From Halomarina salina (lineage in GTDB: Archaea > Halobacteriota > Halobacteria > Halobacteriales > Haloarculaceae), in contig NZ_JALLGW010000001.1 in the NCBI RefSeq assembly GCF_023074835.1, positions 1,364,001 through 1,428,000 of the forward strand: a stretch of 64,000 nt of DNA, in the 5' to 3' direction. The position numbers and the translations under genes are program-made. Within the stretch, counting starts at the first letter, position 1. Every line of letters starts with the position of its first letter. The notes under the pieces were generated by a model. The model worked only from the letters and a program-made list of their open reading frames with translations. It was not told where the DNA came from and searched no databases. Shown in pieces: positions 39,803-46,930 of the stretch.

Positions 39803-40083
39803 GCCTCTCGCCCTCCTGTCAGTCGTCGCATCGTCGCGTTCGCTACCCCCCCGCCGCCCGCCGTCGACCTTCTATCGCGAATCATCGATACGACGTGGTA
39901 CACGAGCGGGGGGACCAAGGGGCTACTGCCAGCGTTCACAGGCGACCCCGTCCGCCGTCGGCCGGTCGGCGTCCTGTCTAGCGATTTGACTATTGGTTCT
40001 ATCTTTCTTTATTAATTCAAGATTAAATATCTAAAATCTATTCAGTAAAATTGATTGTATGAGCGGGCATGGGTAAAATCGTC
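39803..40083. promoter_or_regulatory. AT-rich promoter region for the 44-residue peptide gene
   Basis: From 39985 to 40060 the sequence is strongly AT-rich (TTTATTAATTC, GATTAAATATC at 40021-40031, CAGTAAAATTG at 40044), unlike its surroundings. GATTAAATATC is the best TATA box and would start transcription about 30 nt before the ATG at 40084. The preceding 180 bases are GC-rich with no gene. Confidence 0.5.
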
Positions 40084-40218
40084 ATGTCCGATACCAAGGT
40101 CTCGACGTTCCTGGCAGAGCACCCGAAGATGACCGGCGTCCTGTTCACGACGCTCCTGTTGCTGTCCCAGTCGGGGGCAGTGTCCGCGGCACAGTGTGCC
40201 AGCAACAACGGTCCGTAA
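40084..40218 (+). CDS. 44-residue signal-peptide-like polypeptide (DUF7503-like)
   Basis: MSDTKVSTFLAEHPKMTGVL starts a 44 aa product with one hydrophobic helix (VLFTTLLLLSQSGAVSA), an A-x-A site (VSAAQ) and a nine-residue end AQCASNNGP. The FLAEHPKMTGVLFT-LLLLSQ pattern resembles a haloarchaeal family I recall as DUF7503. An in-frame ATG five codons earlier is less likely. Its stop is 15 nt from the stop of the convergent CHAT protease gene. It could be a membrane peptide or a secreted short peptide; function unknown. Confidence 0.75.
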   Translation: MSDTKVSTFLAEHPKMTGVLFTTLLLLSQSGAVSAAQCASNNGP

Positions 40219-40233
40219 TCGACTCGACCCGAT

Positions 40234-42321
40234 TCAGTCGAGGCGCAGTTCGTCACTCCAGCCCAGTTCTCCGTCGAAGTTAGTGGGCGTCCGTTCGCTC
40301 TTGAGGTACTGGAGGAGTTCCTCGCGGTCGACGACGGACTGCACGAACCGCCCCGAGTTGAGGTAGCGTGTCGTGTCGTCCCCGATGTTCGGTGTGATGA
40401 GCGTCCCCATCCCGAACGTCGCGGTCGGGTAGCCGTAGATAGAGAGGTCGTACCGGCCGTCCGACCGTCGAGCGATTTCGTTTCTCACCGGCGTTCCACT
40501 CCGACTGTCGGCGATCTGTAGCTGTGCGTCGCCGAGGACGGTGTACTGGCGACCGGTGATGGTGTCGCTCGAGATGATGTCCAGCGCCCCGGCCATCGAG
40601 AACCCCGCGTTGAGGAGCCGTGCGAGCGTCCGGCCGACCCGCGTCGCCGGTTCGTTGCCGACCTCGGCCAGGGTGACGACGCCCGCGATGGCTCCCTTCT
40701 CGACGAGTTCCATCCCCTGTTCGAAGGAGCGACAGGCGTTGAGGACGAACGCGCGTGCTCCGACGTAGTCGAGCGTCGTCGCGTCGAGACGGCCGTCGGC
40801 ACACTGCATGCCATCGTCGTCGACGTGGCCGACGTAGTGGACGAAGTCGTAGTCGTCGGCGAGCACCCGCGCCAGTTCCGAACCGGTCAGGTCCTCGAAC
40901 ATGTCGATGTCGAACGCGACGAGTTCTCGCAGGCCGTAGAGGTCGCGCACGTCGGTCTCGGCGCGCATCTCCGGGGAGTTCGAGACGACGGCCACCTCGA
41001 TGGCACCGCTCGGCTGGGCTTCGAGCCGACGCTTGCACGCCGCGACCGTCGGCTTCGACGCACCCATCGGGACGCCGTCGCCGACCCACGCGTGCTCGAT
41101 GGTGTCGGTGGGTTCGGGCTGGACGACGGTGACGTCGTCGTCGAACGGGGTGCCCTCGGGACGACGGACGCTGCCGCGTGCGACCCCGCCGTCGGCGCGG
41201 TAGAAGTCGCTGATGGCCTCCGACGGCCCCGTCGAGTCGGTGGCGAGCGTCGGTTGCGGGCAGCGGACGCGCGCGAGGTCGGCCGTCGCGAACGGGAGGT
41301 GGACGAGGTTCTCTGTGGTCGGCGTGAGGTCGACGGTCGACTTCCAGGTCGGAATCGCCGGTTCGACGACCTCCTGTGGCGTGTCGAGGTACGCCTGCAA
41401 CTGCTCGGTGAACGGAGCGTCGTACAGCGACGCCACGTCGAACGGTAGGTCACCCTCGACGAGCCGTCGGGCGTGGAGGTCGACGGGGTACAGCCCCTCC
41501 GTCCTGACGATACAGTCGAGGGTGAACAGTCGTTCGAGCGTCCGGTGGACGGTCCGTTCGAACCCGCCGTCGCCGTCGAGCGGGTACGACCGACCGCCGA
41601 CGCGCAGTCGCGGCTCGGCACCGATGGCCACCACGGCGTCGGTGTAGTACGCCAGCGGCGCGACCGGGAACAGCGAGGCCACGTCCGGCGGCACCTCGAT
41701 CCGGACGGGGCCGTCTCGGCGTTCGGCCTCCGGTGGCGCGTCGAACGTCTCGCCGAGTTCCAGCAGTGGCGGGTGGCCCCGGAGGGTCGGCCACGACCGT
41801 TCCGGCGAGGTCGTCTTGAGCGCCGACCCGAGACAGGAGAGCGCGCGGGCGACGTCGTCCGGCCGAGCGGTCGTCGTCACCGTCGTCGCGGGGTACTCGT
41901 GCATCGAGCGGATACCGAGCCGGACGTGGTCGGTCCCCTCTACGAGGAGTCGACGCCCCACCTCGTCGGTCGTCGAGCGGAGCGCACCGTCGACGGCGAG
42001 GTACGTCTTGACGGCGAGGGCGGTCACCTCGACCACGTACTCGCCGTCCGGGAGGTCGACGTCCGTCCGGTTGACACCCTCGGCGACGACCTGTCCCTCG
42101 ACGTCGCGGACGATGACGTTGACGTGTTGTGGGATGCGGAGGGCGGTAGTGTCGAGGCGGACCGCCACGTCGACGGGGAACACGAACCCCTCGGGCGTAC
42201 TCGGTTCGGGACTGACCGGCGTCGGCGTCTCCAGCCGCGTGGTGACGCCCTGGATGTCGTCGGCGACCTCCACGCCCACGGGGTCGTCGATGGCGGTGAC
42301 GGTCAGATAGCGAGCGCTCAC
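40234..42321 (-). CDS. CHAT-domain caspase-like protease
   Basis: About 695 aa from GTG at 42321 (a GTG at 42342, directly after the upstream TAG, is also possible). The last 250 residues form a CHAT peptidase: strand-His motif YDFVHYVGHVDDDG (catalytic His near residue 499) and ARAFVLNACRSFEQGMEL (catalytic Cys near 530), followed by GVVTLAEVGNEPATRVGRTLARLL. The first 430 residues are beta-rich and unlike TPR-type CHAT partners. It is co-transcribed with the DUF7504-like gene and faces the small peptide gene. Confidence 0.85.
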   Translation of the reverse strand: MSARYLTVTAIDDPVGVEVADDIQGVTTRLETPTPVSPEPSTPEGFVFPVDVAVRLDTTALRIPQHVNVIVRDVEGQVVAEGVNRTDVDLPDGEYVVEVTALAVKTYLAVDGALRSTTDEVGRRLLVEGTDHVRLGIRSMHEYPATTVTTTARPDDVARALSCLGSALKTTSPERSWPTLRGHPPLLELGETFDAPPEAERRDGPVRIEVPPDVASLFPVAPLAYYTDAVVAIGAEPRLRVGGRSYPLDGDGGFERTVHRTLERLFTLDCIVRTEGLYPVDLHARRLVEGDLPFDVASLYDAPFTEQLQAYLDTPQEVVEPAIPTWKSTVDLTPTTENLVHLPFATADLARVRCPQPTLATDSTGPSEAISDFYRADGGVARGSVRRPEGTPFDDDVTVVQPEPTDTIEHAWVGDGVPMGASKPTVAACKRRLEAQPSGAIEVAVVSNSPEMRAETDVRDLYGLRELVAFDIDMFEDLTGSELARVLADDYDFVHYVGHVDDDGMQCADGRLDATTLDYVGARAFVLNACRSFEQGMELVEKGAIAGVVTLAEVGNEPATRVGRTLARLLNAGFSMAGALDIISSDTITGRQYTVLGDAQLQIADSRSGTPVRNEIARRSDGRYDLSIYGYPTATFGMGTLITPNIGDDTTRYLNSGRFVQSVVDREELLQYLKSERTPTNFDGELGWSDELRLD

Positions 42322-42342
42322 ACTGGCTCTTCGACTCCCCAC

Positions 42343-43023
42343 CTATAACAGCATCCACTCGGTCGATTCGTCCGAGTCGATGAACGACCACCGCTGCTCC
42401 GGCGGGAGGCCGTCGCGCTGCCGGAGGTCGATGCGGGCGTCGAACGCGGACTGGAGCGTCCTCACCGTGGGTGCGGCGGTCGGACCGGCGACGTGACAGT
42501 GGTACATCCCCCGGTGCTCGCGCACGGCGGCTCCGAGCGACCGAACGACCCGACCACATCGCTCCGGACCGTAGCGGTCGGTCAGCGTTCCGAGACCGAC
42601 GAGGCCGACCCGGAGTTCGGCGGGTGCGAACGCCCCCGGCGCGTCGCCCTCGGCGTCGATGGCGGCGAGCGTCGCGGCGTGGAAGTCGGCGAGCGGGTCG
42701 ACCGACGCGTTCAACGGGGCCGGTTCGGCGCTGGCCGTGGCTCCCGACCGGAGGGGGTCCGCGTGCTCGACGACGGTGACCCGGTCGTCCGTCGGCGTGA
42801 CCGGGTGAGGGAGGTACTGCGACGGCGAGGAGTCGTCGGCCAGCGCGAGGACGCGAGCGCGCTCCTCGGACGGCGACCCGAGCAGTCGGCGCGTCTGCTG
42901 TGCCCGGACTGCGCGTCCCACCTCTCCCGTGACGAGGAGGCTGGCTCCCTCGCGTTTGAGCCGCTGGAGGGTCGCGGCGACCGCAGGCGACCCTCCGTCT
43001 CCTGCTCGCGGCGTTTCGTCCAC
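42343..43023 (-). CDS. DUF7504-like degenerate RecA-fold protein
   Basis: 226 aa with GTG start. LKREGASLLVTGEVGRAVRAQQTRRLLG looks like a RecA/KaiC-type strand and P-loop position without a functional Walker A, followed by ERARVLALADDSSPSQYLP and a late AELRVGLVGLGTLTDRYGPERC resembling Walker B and sensor strands. This matches a haloarchaeal family I recall as DUF7504. Its TAG directly abuts the CHAT gene's GTG, and a strong TATA box at 43041-43053 drives the pair. Confidence 0.72.
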   Translation of the reverse strand: MDETPRAGDGGSPAVAATLQRLKREGASLLVTGEVGRAVRAQQTRRLLGSPSEERARVLALADDSSPSQYLPHPVTPTDDRVTVVEHADPLRSGATASAEPAPLNASVDPLADFHAATLAAIDAEGDAPGAFAPAELRVGLVGLGTLTDRYGPERCGRVVRSLGAAVREHRGMYHCHVAGPTAAPTVRTLQSAFDARIDLRQRDGLPPEQRWSFIDSDESTEWMLL

Positions 43024-43040
43024 AGTGGTAACCCAACGAC

Positions 43041-43053
43041 AATTATTAAATAG
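43041..43053 (-). promoter_or_regulatory. TATA-like box of the DUF7504-CHAT unit
   Basis: Minus-strand CTATTTAATAATT sits about 18-30 nt before the GTG at 43023, the position for a leaderless haloarchaeal promoter. Confidence 0.6.
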
Positions 43054-43235: not shown

Positions 43236-44168
43236 ATGAGTACGCTACTCGCGTTACAACAGGACGGGAGCGAGTCGGATGGGTTCACCGTCCCGGAGAC
43301 GCCCGCCGAGGCGCTCGACGCGTTCAGCGGCGTCATCACGGCCGCGGGGAAGTTCCTCGTCGCCTTCGTCGTCGTCTACCTCCTGGGCCGGTTCGTCCTC
43401 GTCCCGCTGACGAAACGTGCGATGAAGGCCCGCGGGTTCAACGCGACCATCCGGAGCCTCGCCGACGACGTGCTCTCCGCGGTCGTCCTGTTCGCGGCGC
43501 TGGCCATCGCGCTGACGCTGGCGGGGTTCGGCACGTTCCTCGCGGCGTTCGCCACCATCGGCGGTGCGCTGGCGCTGGCGGTCGGCTTCGCCGCGCAGGA
43601 CCTCATGGGCAACTTCGTCGCGGGGGTGTTCATCCTCAAGGACAAGCCGTTCGAGGTGGGCGACTGGATAGAACAGGACGACCTCGTCGGCCGGGTCGAG
43701 GACATCGACCTCCGGGTGACGACCGTCCGGACGTTCGACAACGAGAAGATAACCGTCCCGAACTCCGAACTCGCCGACAACCCGGTGAAGAACCCGGTCG
43801 CGTACGACAAACTCCGGCAGAAGTTCGTCTTCGGCATCGGCTACGACGACGACATCGACCACGCCCGGCGGGTCATCCTCGACGAGGCGAGCAAGCAGGG
43901 GGAGATCCTCGACGACCCCGCGCCCGACGTGCGCGTGACCGAACTCGCCGACTCGTACATCGGCCTCCAGACGCGGTTCTGGATGGACAACCCCTCGAGA
44001 TCGGGGTTCACCACCATCCGCTCGGACTTCGTCCAGGCGGTCAAGGAGCGCTGTGACGCCGAAGGTATCGACATGCCGTACCCCTACGTGCAGGTCGTCG
44101 GCGGCCTCGACGTCGAGATGGACGGCGAACTCGCGACCCAGCAGCTACAGCCGTCGGCCGACGACTGA
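43236..44168 (+). CDS. Mechanosensitive channel, MscS family
   Basis: 310 aa from ATG (MSTLLALQQDG), preceded by GGAGG 8 nt upstream; earlier in-frame codons are promoter. Transmembrane helices are near residues 28-50, 70-95 and the pore helix LAAFATIGGALALAVGFAAQDLMGNFVAGVFI, a Gly/Ala-rich TM3. The cytoplasmic MscS beta domain (EVGDWIEQDDLVGRVEDIDLRVTTVRTFDNEKITVPNSEL) and C-terminal alpha/beta domain follow. It releases osmolytes under hypo-osmotic shock. Confidence 0.93.
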   Translation: MSTLLALQQDGSESDGFTVPETPAEALDAFSGVITAAGKFLVAFVVVYLLGRFVLVPLTKRAMKARGFNATIRSLADDVLSAVVLFAALAIALTLAGFGTFLAAFATIGGALALAVGFAAQDLMGNFVAGVFILKDKPFEVGDWIEQDDLVGRVEDIDLRVTTVRTFDNEKITVPNSELADNPVKNPVAYDKLRQKFVFGIGYDDDIDHARRVILDEASKQGEILDDPAPDVRVTELADSYIGLQTRFWMDNPSRSGFTTIRSDFVQAVKERCDAEGIDMPYPYVQVVGGLDVEMDGELATQQLQPSADD

Positions 44169-45421: not shown

Positions 45422-46930
45422 TCAGTCGCGGCGTGCCAGCAGCGCGGTCGCACCGAGTGCGACGAGCGCCGCGAGGACGCCGAAGCCGGGTCCGCTCCCG
45501 TCCGACGTGTCGTTCCCCTCGCCACCGATGACCTGTGCGGTCCGCGTGGCGTTCTCGCCAGCGGCCGTCGTCCCCGTCTCGTTGGCGGGTGCGCCAGGCC
45601 CGGCGGCCGGTGCCGAGGTGGTGTTCGCCCCACCTTCGCCGGTCGCCGTGTCGTCGGTGGTCGCGGACTCGCTCCCGGCCGTGGAGTCGGTCGTGTCGCC
45701 GCCGGTCGCTGCCGAGGTGGTCGCGTCGGCCTCGTTACTGTCCGGCGACTGGTCGATGGTGGACTGCTCGGTGCTCTCTGTGCCGTCGGACCCACCGGCG
45801 TCTCCACCGTCGCCAGCACCAGCGTCGCCGTCACCGGCTCCGGCGTCGCCGTCTCCGCTACCGTCCCCGCTGCTACCGTCGTCGGTCGGTGCGGCCGTCG
45901 TCGGTGCAGTGGTGGTCGGTTCGTCGGTGGTCGGTTCGCTGGTCGGCTGCTCCGTCGTGGGTTCGTCGGTCGTCGGTTCGTCGCCCACGAGCTGGCCGTC
46001 GCCGGTCCGCGGGTCGGTCACGTAGTACGGGTCGAACCGGACGTTCGAGACGCCCGACTCCGACCCCTCGCTGACGCTGTCGCCGCTGCCGTCGGCGAGT
46101 CTGCCCGTCGCGGGGTCCTCGACGTTCCCGGAGGGACCGCTGTCGGCACCCCACCAGTTCTCGCGGGCGTCGACCTGCCCGCGCTCGGCGCTCACGCCGT
46201 TCCCGTTGCCGGCGATGATGGTGTACTGGATGGTCGTGGACTCCGGCATGGACACACTGATACCGTTGTTACCGTTGTTCTCGACGGCGCTCCGGTCGAC
46301 CGTCAGCGAACTCGAATCGGTGACGATGCCGTCCCCGTCGTTGTTCGAGACGGTGCTCTGTTCGAGGACGATGTCCGCGTAGAGGCCCCCGATACCGTTC
46401 GCGTTCTCGGTCACGTCGACGCTGCTGAGGGTGACCTGACTCTCCTCGACGAGGATACCGTAGTCGTTGCCGGTCGCCGTTGAGTCGCTGACCGTCGCCT
46501 CGACGGTCTGGCCGAACGTGATACCGCGCTGGTTCCCGCTGACCGTCACGCCGTCGACGCTGGCACCGTAGGCGTCGACGAGGTCGATACCGTTCGTCCA
46601 CCCGGTGACCGTCACGTCACCGATGGCGACGTTCTGCTGGCCGCGCTGGACGAGGATGCCGGTGTCCGCGCCACCGGCGTTGTCGACTGAGTGGCCGTTC
46701 CCGTCGAGCGTCACGTCGCCCGCCGCGATGGTGAGGCAGGCCTCCCCGGAGGCGTTCGCGCCCACGTCGCTCGTGAGCGTGTACTCCCCGGCCTGGTCGA
46801 TGGTCGTACAGGTGTCGATTTCGTTCTGTGTCGACTGCTGTGCGGTCACAGCGGCCGACGCGGTGGGTACCGCGACGAGGGCGACGACGAGTGCCAGGAT
46901 GGCGACCCGCCGCCCGTGCGAGACTGTCAT
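45422..46930 (-). CDS. PGF-CTERM surface protein with right-handed beta-helix
   Basis: 502 aa. Signal peptide (AILALVVALVAVPTASA), then a right-handed parallel beta-helix of repeated NNG/GNDYGI turns (residues about 50-270, ending at NWWGADSGPSGNVEDPATGR). A long Thr/Pro/Glu/Asp low-complexity stalk suited to O-glycosylation follows. The C-terminus GSGPGFGVLAALVALGATALLARRD is a PGF-CTERM signal, implying cleavage and lipid attachment by archaeosortase A. The protein is probably a surface glycoprotein; ligand unknown. Confidence 0.92.
   Translation of the reverse strand: MTVSHGRRVAILALVVALVAVPTASAAVTAQQSTQNEIDTCTTIDQAGEYTLTSDVGANASGEACLTIAAGDVTLDGNGHSVDNAGGADTGILVQRGQQNVAIGDVTVTGWTNGIDLVDAYGASVDGVTVSGNQRGITFGQTVEATVSDSTATGNDYGILVEESQVTLSSVDVTENANGIGGLYADIVLEQSTVSNNDGDGIVTDSSSLTVDRSAVENNGNNGISVSMPESTTIQYTIIAGNGNGVSAERGQVDARENWWGADSGPSGNVEDPATGRLADGSGDSVSEGSESGVSNVRFDPYYVTDPRTGDGQLVGDEPTTDEPTTEQPTSEPTTDEPTTTAPTTAAPTDDGSSGDGSGDGDAGAGDGDAGAGDGGDAGGSDGTESTEQSTIDQSPDSNEADATTSAATGGDTTDSTAGSESATTDDTATGEGGANTTSAPAAGPGAPANETGTTAAGENATRTAQVIGGEGNDTSDGSGPGFGVLAALVALGATALLARRD

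Follow-up and report, generated by a model that had tools for sequence, protein, structure and literature searches.

Organization of the locus

The window, i.e., the complete 64,000-nucleotide stretch of Halomarina salina DNA that was analyzed, contains a gene for a CHAT-type cysteine protease that is flanked on one side by a convergent gene for a 44-residue peptide and on the other by a gene for a RecA-like protein. The relevant features are as follows:

40234 to 42321, minus strand: CHAT-type (clan CD) cysteine protease; 695 amino acids, with His499 and Cys530, fold at about residues 400 to 600
40084 to 40218, plus strand: DUF7503 peptide gene; 44 amino acids, product MSDTKVSTFLAEHPKMTGVLFTTLLLLSQSGAVSAAQCASNNGP
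42343 to 43023, minus strand: DUF7504 protein; 226 amino acids, pseudo-RecA/KaiC-CI fold, upstream of the protease gene on the same strand
40037 to 40060, plus strand: DUF7503 promoter element, beginning 47 nucleotides 5' of the start codon
39984 to 40065, plus strand: AT-rich stretch 5' of the DUF7503 peptide gene

The protease open reading frame carries both signatures (YVGHVDDDG and VLNACRSF) in which a first-pass annotation, made from the sequence alone, had recognized a CHAT His/Cys pair, and the convergent 44-codon gene was likewise found where it had been placed, with its stop codon 15 nucleotides from that of the protease gene. The 226-codon frame does lie immediately upstream of the protease gene, as annotated; the claim that the two abut without a gap (TAG-GTG), however, does not hold for the 695-amino-acid form, which starts with a GTG at position 42321 and leaves a gap of 21 nucleotides. 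The GTG that abuts the DUF7504 stop codon is an alternative start at position 42342 and would give a product of 702 amino acids. Since both smaller products score well above the respective Pfam cut-offs, the peptide as DUF7503 (PF24335; 66.8 bits versus a cut-off of 27, E=1.3e-18) and the 226-residue protein as DUF7504 (PF24336; 133.2 bits versus a cut-off of 27, E=1.8e-38), neither reading frame can be attributed to chance.

Two further genes of the window are an MscS-type mechanosensitive channel gene (43239 to 44168, plus strand), divergent from the DUF7504-CHAT operon, and a gene (45422 to 46930, minus strand) whose NosD/beta-helix product carries a PGF-CTERM sorting motif. Elsewhere in the same genome, a second site (G000:C1:2891133-2896934; loci L162 and L201) holds a mirror-image double module, in the order peptide, CHAT (reverse), DUF7504, CHAT, peptide (reverse), so that two CHAT genes are arranged head to head around a single DUF7504 gene. 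An additional CHAT gene (G000:C1:2302135-2303733; L318) belongs to a peptide-less sister group.

Conservation of the protease-peptide pair

The linkage between the peptide and protease genes, whose loss in other genomes had been named beforehand as grounds for doubt, turned out to be retained. At least 149 DUF7503 genes are present among the matches listed for the taxonomic family of the window (146 genomes), and 140 of the 145 that could be assessed are convergent with a CHAT gene, a count that combines 127 convergent cases among the matches listed with 13 added after inspection, leaves four of the 149 outside the denominator and, like the other linkage counts, takes in related genomes. The five exceptions comprise two genes on the same strand as CHAT, one divergent gene, one with no CHAT gene closer than 5 kb and one adjacent to a CHAT remnant. 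An independent collection, in which the organisms are named, shows the peptide gene in convergent orientation at 72 of 80 haloarchaeal CHAT loci, including those of Haloferax, Haladaptatus, Halorussus, Haloarcula and Halosimplex; loci of the same genus as the window were found in Halomarina rubra, H. halobia and H. oriensis.

Because the raw counts include related genomes, the argument for conservation of the pair rests on the breadth of genera and on the CHAT tree described below. A search for co-occurrence and gene order across the haloarchaea, as had been suggested, confirmed the pair as conserved: DUF7503 occurs, mostly in single copy, in 335 of 391 sampled Halobacteria genomes and in 73 of 86 genera, and Haloferax volcanii, in the control set, matches both DUF7503 and DUF7504. 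The neighbors of the protease-peptide unit differ between genera, indicating that the arrangement is carried as a block. In multicopy genomes, moreover, CHAT and peptide paralogues are coinherited (r = 0.49, versus 0.27 after peptides had been swapped within genomes). At one locus (L188:4998-5316), two tandem DUF7503 genes lie on the minus strand, approximately 1.9 kb past a CHAT gene.

The CHAT protease

The high-confidence AF2 model of the 695-amino-acid protein (pLDDT, 88; pTM, 0.89) has a CHAT/caspase fold at about residues 400 to 600, preceded by the long, beta-rich N-terminal part that had been read from the sequence. In a Foldseek search, this model matched SAVED-CHAT (PDB 8tl0, the best structural match; E=5e-7), gingipains R and K, separase, caspases and the TPR-CHAT protein of Craspase (CHAT chains 8d9h [E=7.6e-5], 7zoq and 7y84). 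The Pfam CHAT model (PF12770) did not match the window protein and matched 6 of 60 relatives (best E value, 2.2e-5), and no match was obtained either when PDB sequences were searched with the CHAT profile or in an NCBIfam search. No TPR repeats were found on the protease in the Pfam family scan, in keeping with the beta-rich N terminus of the model.

Both His499 and Cys530 are invariant in the alignment (120 of 120 CHATs), so that the absence of a catalytic residue from most homologues, a second point on which the annotation might have failed, was not observed. The dyad is kept at every peptide-bearing and divergent-peptide locus; CHATs without a typical peptide still hold it, and several of these face a divergent, convergent peptide gene that the profile had missed. 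In a tree built by a quick method from a sample enriched for peptide-less CHATs, the peptide-bearing CHATs form one haloarchaeal clade, and the peptide is absent both from the sister group and from homologues that belong to a different family of this phylum, although some CHATs inside the peptide clade are without a detectable peptide gene as well. The homologues from the other family (L308 to L311, from nonhalophilic relatives) are presumably those of Methanocella; at least one of them (L310) has lost both the His and the Cys, and none has a recognizable peptide gene.

Another residue that is invariant in the alignment, Glu455, lies 44 residues before the catalytic His in a beta1-loop motif. 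It resembles the S1 acidic residue of gingipain R, and such a residue would suit a basic P1. As a peptide-specific residue, Glu455 had to be rejected, because most relatives that lack the peptide retain it, those of the sister group and the Methanocella-type proteins among them. In one peptide-less clade (L215 to L218 and L315), the otherwise invariant loop containing N448, M452 and E455 is altered while His and Cys are kept; a connection between this alteration and the loss of the peptide is only suggestive, given that it represents a single event and that the loop is intact in other CHATs without a peptide.

The DUF7503 peptide

The hydrophobic helix and A-x-A site that had been noted on the Halomarina peptide belong to a layout found throughout the family. 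Eight to 15 polar residues are followed by [HN]-P-[KR], directly ahead of a hydrophobic helix in which a G, an F, a Q and a further G are conserved, and in the peptide alignment the Pro and the Lys/Arg are present in 120 of 120 sequences and the Gln in 114. An [AV]xA site follows in 113 of 120, versus 43% when the local end sequence was shuffled. The subsequent tail of 8 to 9 residues is variable, almost uncharged and different among paralogues within one genome, and 113 of 120 peptides end in Gly-Pro. Selection acts on the peptide at the protein level (dN/dS of about 0.16). The Gly-Pro end is encoded by all synonymous Gly and Pro codons and is followed by any of the three stop codons, which led us to reject a DNA-level or terminator constraint as its origin.

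The same variability of the Gly-Pro and stop codons bears on the idea that antisense pairing of the convergent 3' ends couples expression of the two genes, much as in a type I toxin-antitoxin system. The peptide is small and hydrophobic and the stop codons adjoin or overlap at many loci, as such a system would have it, but the gaps range up to 228 nucleotides, Rfam gave no match, and the packing of other convergent gene pairs at these loci is nearly as tight (21% within -20 to 2 nucleotides, against 33%). We therefore rejected antisense or 3' overlap as the reason for the arrangement, considering it highly improbable, and, tight 3' packing being common in these genomes, we left it out of the evidence altogether.

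A second explanation makes the peptide a pheromone: a Sec-exported precursor would be cut at A-x-A, and the resulting 8- to 9-residue peptide ending in GP would be sensed via CHAT or DUF7504. RRNPP pheromone precursors (Phr, PapR and PrgQ) are approximately 44 amino acids long, with a signal-like helix and a short C-terminal tail, and DUF7503 resembles them in all three respects. The positive-inside, signal-peptide layout, the well-placed [AV]xA site and a tail of fixed length and fixed GP end, yet of variable, almost uncharged sequence that distinguishes paralogues of one genome, would all fit. Unlike a plain signal peptide, however, DUF7503 has a helix that is strongly conserved at individual residues (Gln, Gly and Phe), and it further differs from the RRNPP precursors in being convergent with a protease gene and in having no RRNPP receptor; indeed, no known type of pheromone receptor is linked to the peptide gene. 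Additionally, a set of divergent members (L206, L207, L211 to L214, L294 and L299), in which the hydrophobic stretch is weaker or broken and a clear signal sequence is missing, keep GP and Pro-Lys, with HPK in all except L213 (EPK). We consider the pheromone explanation rather unlikely. That these divergent peptides mostly keep HPK and GP while losing the core argues that the two ends of the peptide are read by the protease or another partner, rather than serving export alone. In two other divergent peptides, L233 (NPS) and L208 (RPT), the Lys has been lost.

Promoter of the peptide gene

The AT-rich promoter reported 5' of the peptide gene is present, and its motif proved to be common to the whole family: the consensus of DUF7503 genes is AATtTTtAGATAAATTTAaT, of which the window copy is CTATTCAGTAAAATTGATTG. 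In most of 79 nonredundant upstream regions the element starts 44 to 50 nucleotides before the start codon, and AT content peaks between -80 and -20 across the family. Of the promoters of other genes at these loci, only 0.3% exceed the lower quartile of the peptide genes for this element, and CHAT upstream regions, including that of the window, never do; no promoter motif common to peptide and CHAT genes was found. The element may be a near-ideal BRE/TATA, which we take as the probable reading, or a regulator site. Shine-Dalgarno-like sites are rare upstream of DUF7503 genes, which suggests a near-leaderless, strong transcript.

DUF7504 and other neighbors

The upstream protein had been described as RecA-like without a Walker A motif, and this was borne out: the protein is modeled with a KaiC CI/RadA fold (Foldseek match to KaiC CI, 4tlc; E=8e-7; TM of about 0.55), and no GK[ST] occurs in the window protein or in a consensus drawn from 38 relatives. 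DUF7504 genes were found near 55 of 120 pairs, 28 directly upstream of CHAT and 27 head to head with the peptide gene, and nowhere else. With none near the other 65 pairs, we rejected DUF7504 as an obligatory third member. At many loci without DUF7504, the gene adjoining the peptide gene head to head encodes a receiver-PAS regulator or a member of an unnamed family without a Pfam match. Neighboring genes were predicted with a simple codon-usage script, and those of the window and of some other loci were scanned against Pfam; an all-versus-all clustering of neighbors was dominated by shadow frames and served as a pointer only.

One conserved gene of approximately 137 codons, without a Pfam match (VVYxTxGLxxALLxxAxxRDPxxVT...), is head to head with the DUF7503 gene in loci of several genera (L093:6881-7295, numbered with CHAT on the plus strand, and many others). 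This family is reminiscent of TbsP/DUF5821.

A proposed model for protease and peptide

In summary, it is established that protease and peptide form one coinherited, selected module in which the catalytic residues of the protease are intact. Given the linkage, the invariant dyad, the breadth of distribution and the protein-level selection on the peptide, the two almost certainly represent one functional unit; the original suggestion that they form one system is thus strongly supported by convergent linkage, coinheritance, a single CHAT clade and an invariant dyad.

As to how the unit might work, we infer a physical interaction, a membrane topology, a cleavage event with its site and an outcome as follows. 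The cytosolic, caspase-like protease would act together with its own 44-residue peptide, the hydrophobic helix of which would insert in or cross the membrane with the N terminus inside. Recognition would involve the N-terminal HP[K/R] motif and the Gly-Pro C terminus, the candidate cut being after the K/R of HP[K/R], next to the membrane, and proteolysis would change the membrane helix or free the tail. DUF7504, non-ATP-binding, KaiC-like and a candidate sensor in the first-pass annotation, might be an added input or regulatory subunit at about half of the loci. We propose that the protease may prefer a basic P1, because Lys/Arg is invariant and because Glu455 is presumably placed as in gingipain R.

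That the peptide is a dedicated substrate or docking partner of CHAT in a haloarchaea-wide module is the reading we favor and strikes us as plausible, if a little short of probable. Several observations speak against it: the positive-inside rule also yields Lys/Arg before a hydrophobic helix, the two divergent peptides mentioned above have Thr or Ser at this position, peptide-less CHAT relatives keep Glu455, which is thus not peptide specific, and for some CHATs of the peptide clade a peptide gene could not be detected. Alternatively, the peptide might inhibit the protease or anchor it at the membrane without being cut. The same convergent linkage and the motifs conserved at both peptide ends, which fit binding, would serve this explanation equally well, and sequence cannot separate it from the substrate model; with nothing specific against it, we nevertheless regard it as unlikely. 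More broadly, the module could constitute a new kind of archaeal protease-peptide signaling or regulated cell-death circuit, with a KaiC-like pseudo-ATPase or receiver-PAS input and an exported or membrane-inserted peptide, which we put forward tentatively as a possibility.

Relation to known systems

As in bacterial TPR-CHAT/gasdermin systems, a CHAT cysteine protease gene adjoins the gene for a membrane-active or membrane-bound partner. The haloarchaeal gene differs in being chromosomal and near universal, the protease model is without TPR, and the partner is a 44-amino-acid convergent peptide: among the Pfam-scanned neighbors, i.e., those of the window and some of those at the 120 gene-predicted loci, we found neither a gasdermin nor a TPR receptor adjoining the peptide. 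A minimal gasdermin analogue, in which cleavage of the peptide by CHAT would release a helix that permeabilizes the membrane and kills the cell, would suit both a single-helix peptide adjoining a CHAT protease and the membrane-adjacent Lys/Arg in all 120 aligned peptides. Since most haloarchaea carry approximately one chromosomal copy, unlike a mobile defense gene, and since neither the PADLOC defense profiles nor viral contig and phage collections gave a match, we consider such killing quite improbable.

Craspase (type III-E CRISPR, with the TPR-CHAT protein Csx29) has the CHAT fold in common with the protease; the haloarchaeal loci differ from it in having no Cas7-11/CRISPR genes among the predicted neighbors, no Csx30 and a beta-rich protease N terminus. 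Similarly, and in contrast to the SAVED-CHAT filament (8tl0), no SAVED domain was found on the haloarchaeal protein, which has no CRISPR context either. The first-pass annotation had called the combination undescribed. Literature searches for DUF7503, DUF7504 and haloarchaeal CHAT returned nothing relevant, and no description of an archaeal CHAT system with a partner was found in them, which agrees with that claim; the two families, however, were already named in Pfam as DUFs, with no function given there or in the searchable literature.

If the peptide is a substrate, CHAT proteases would have in it a very small natural target, and if it is a signal, it might be an archaeal peptide pheromone. 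The pair, which is conserved, mostly single copy and genetically accessible, is present in most haloarchaea, including Haloferax volcanii. In this haloarchaeon, which has DUF7503 and DUF7504 matches, a caspase-type activity was reported for which the gene is not known (PMC3615174). Extracts cut Asp-P1 substrates and showed no activity on ARR-AMC (PMC3615174), so that a CHAT protease with a basic P1, if that is indeed its preference, would not explain this Asp-specific activity.
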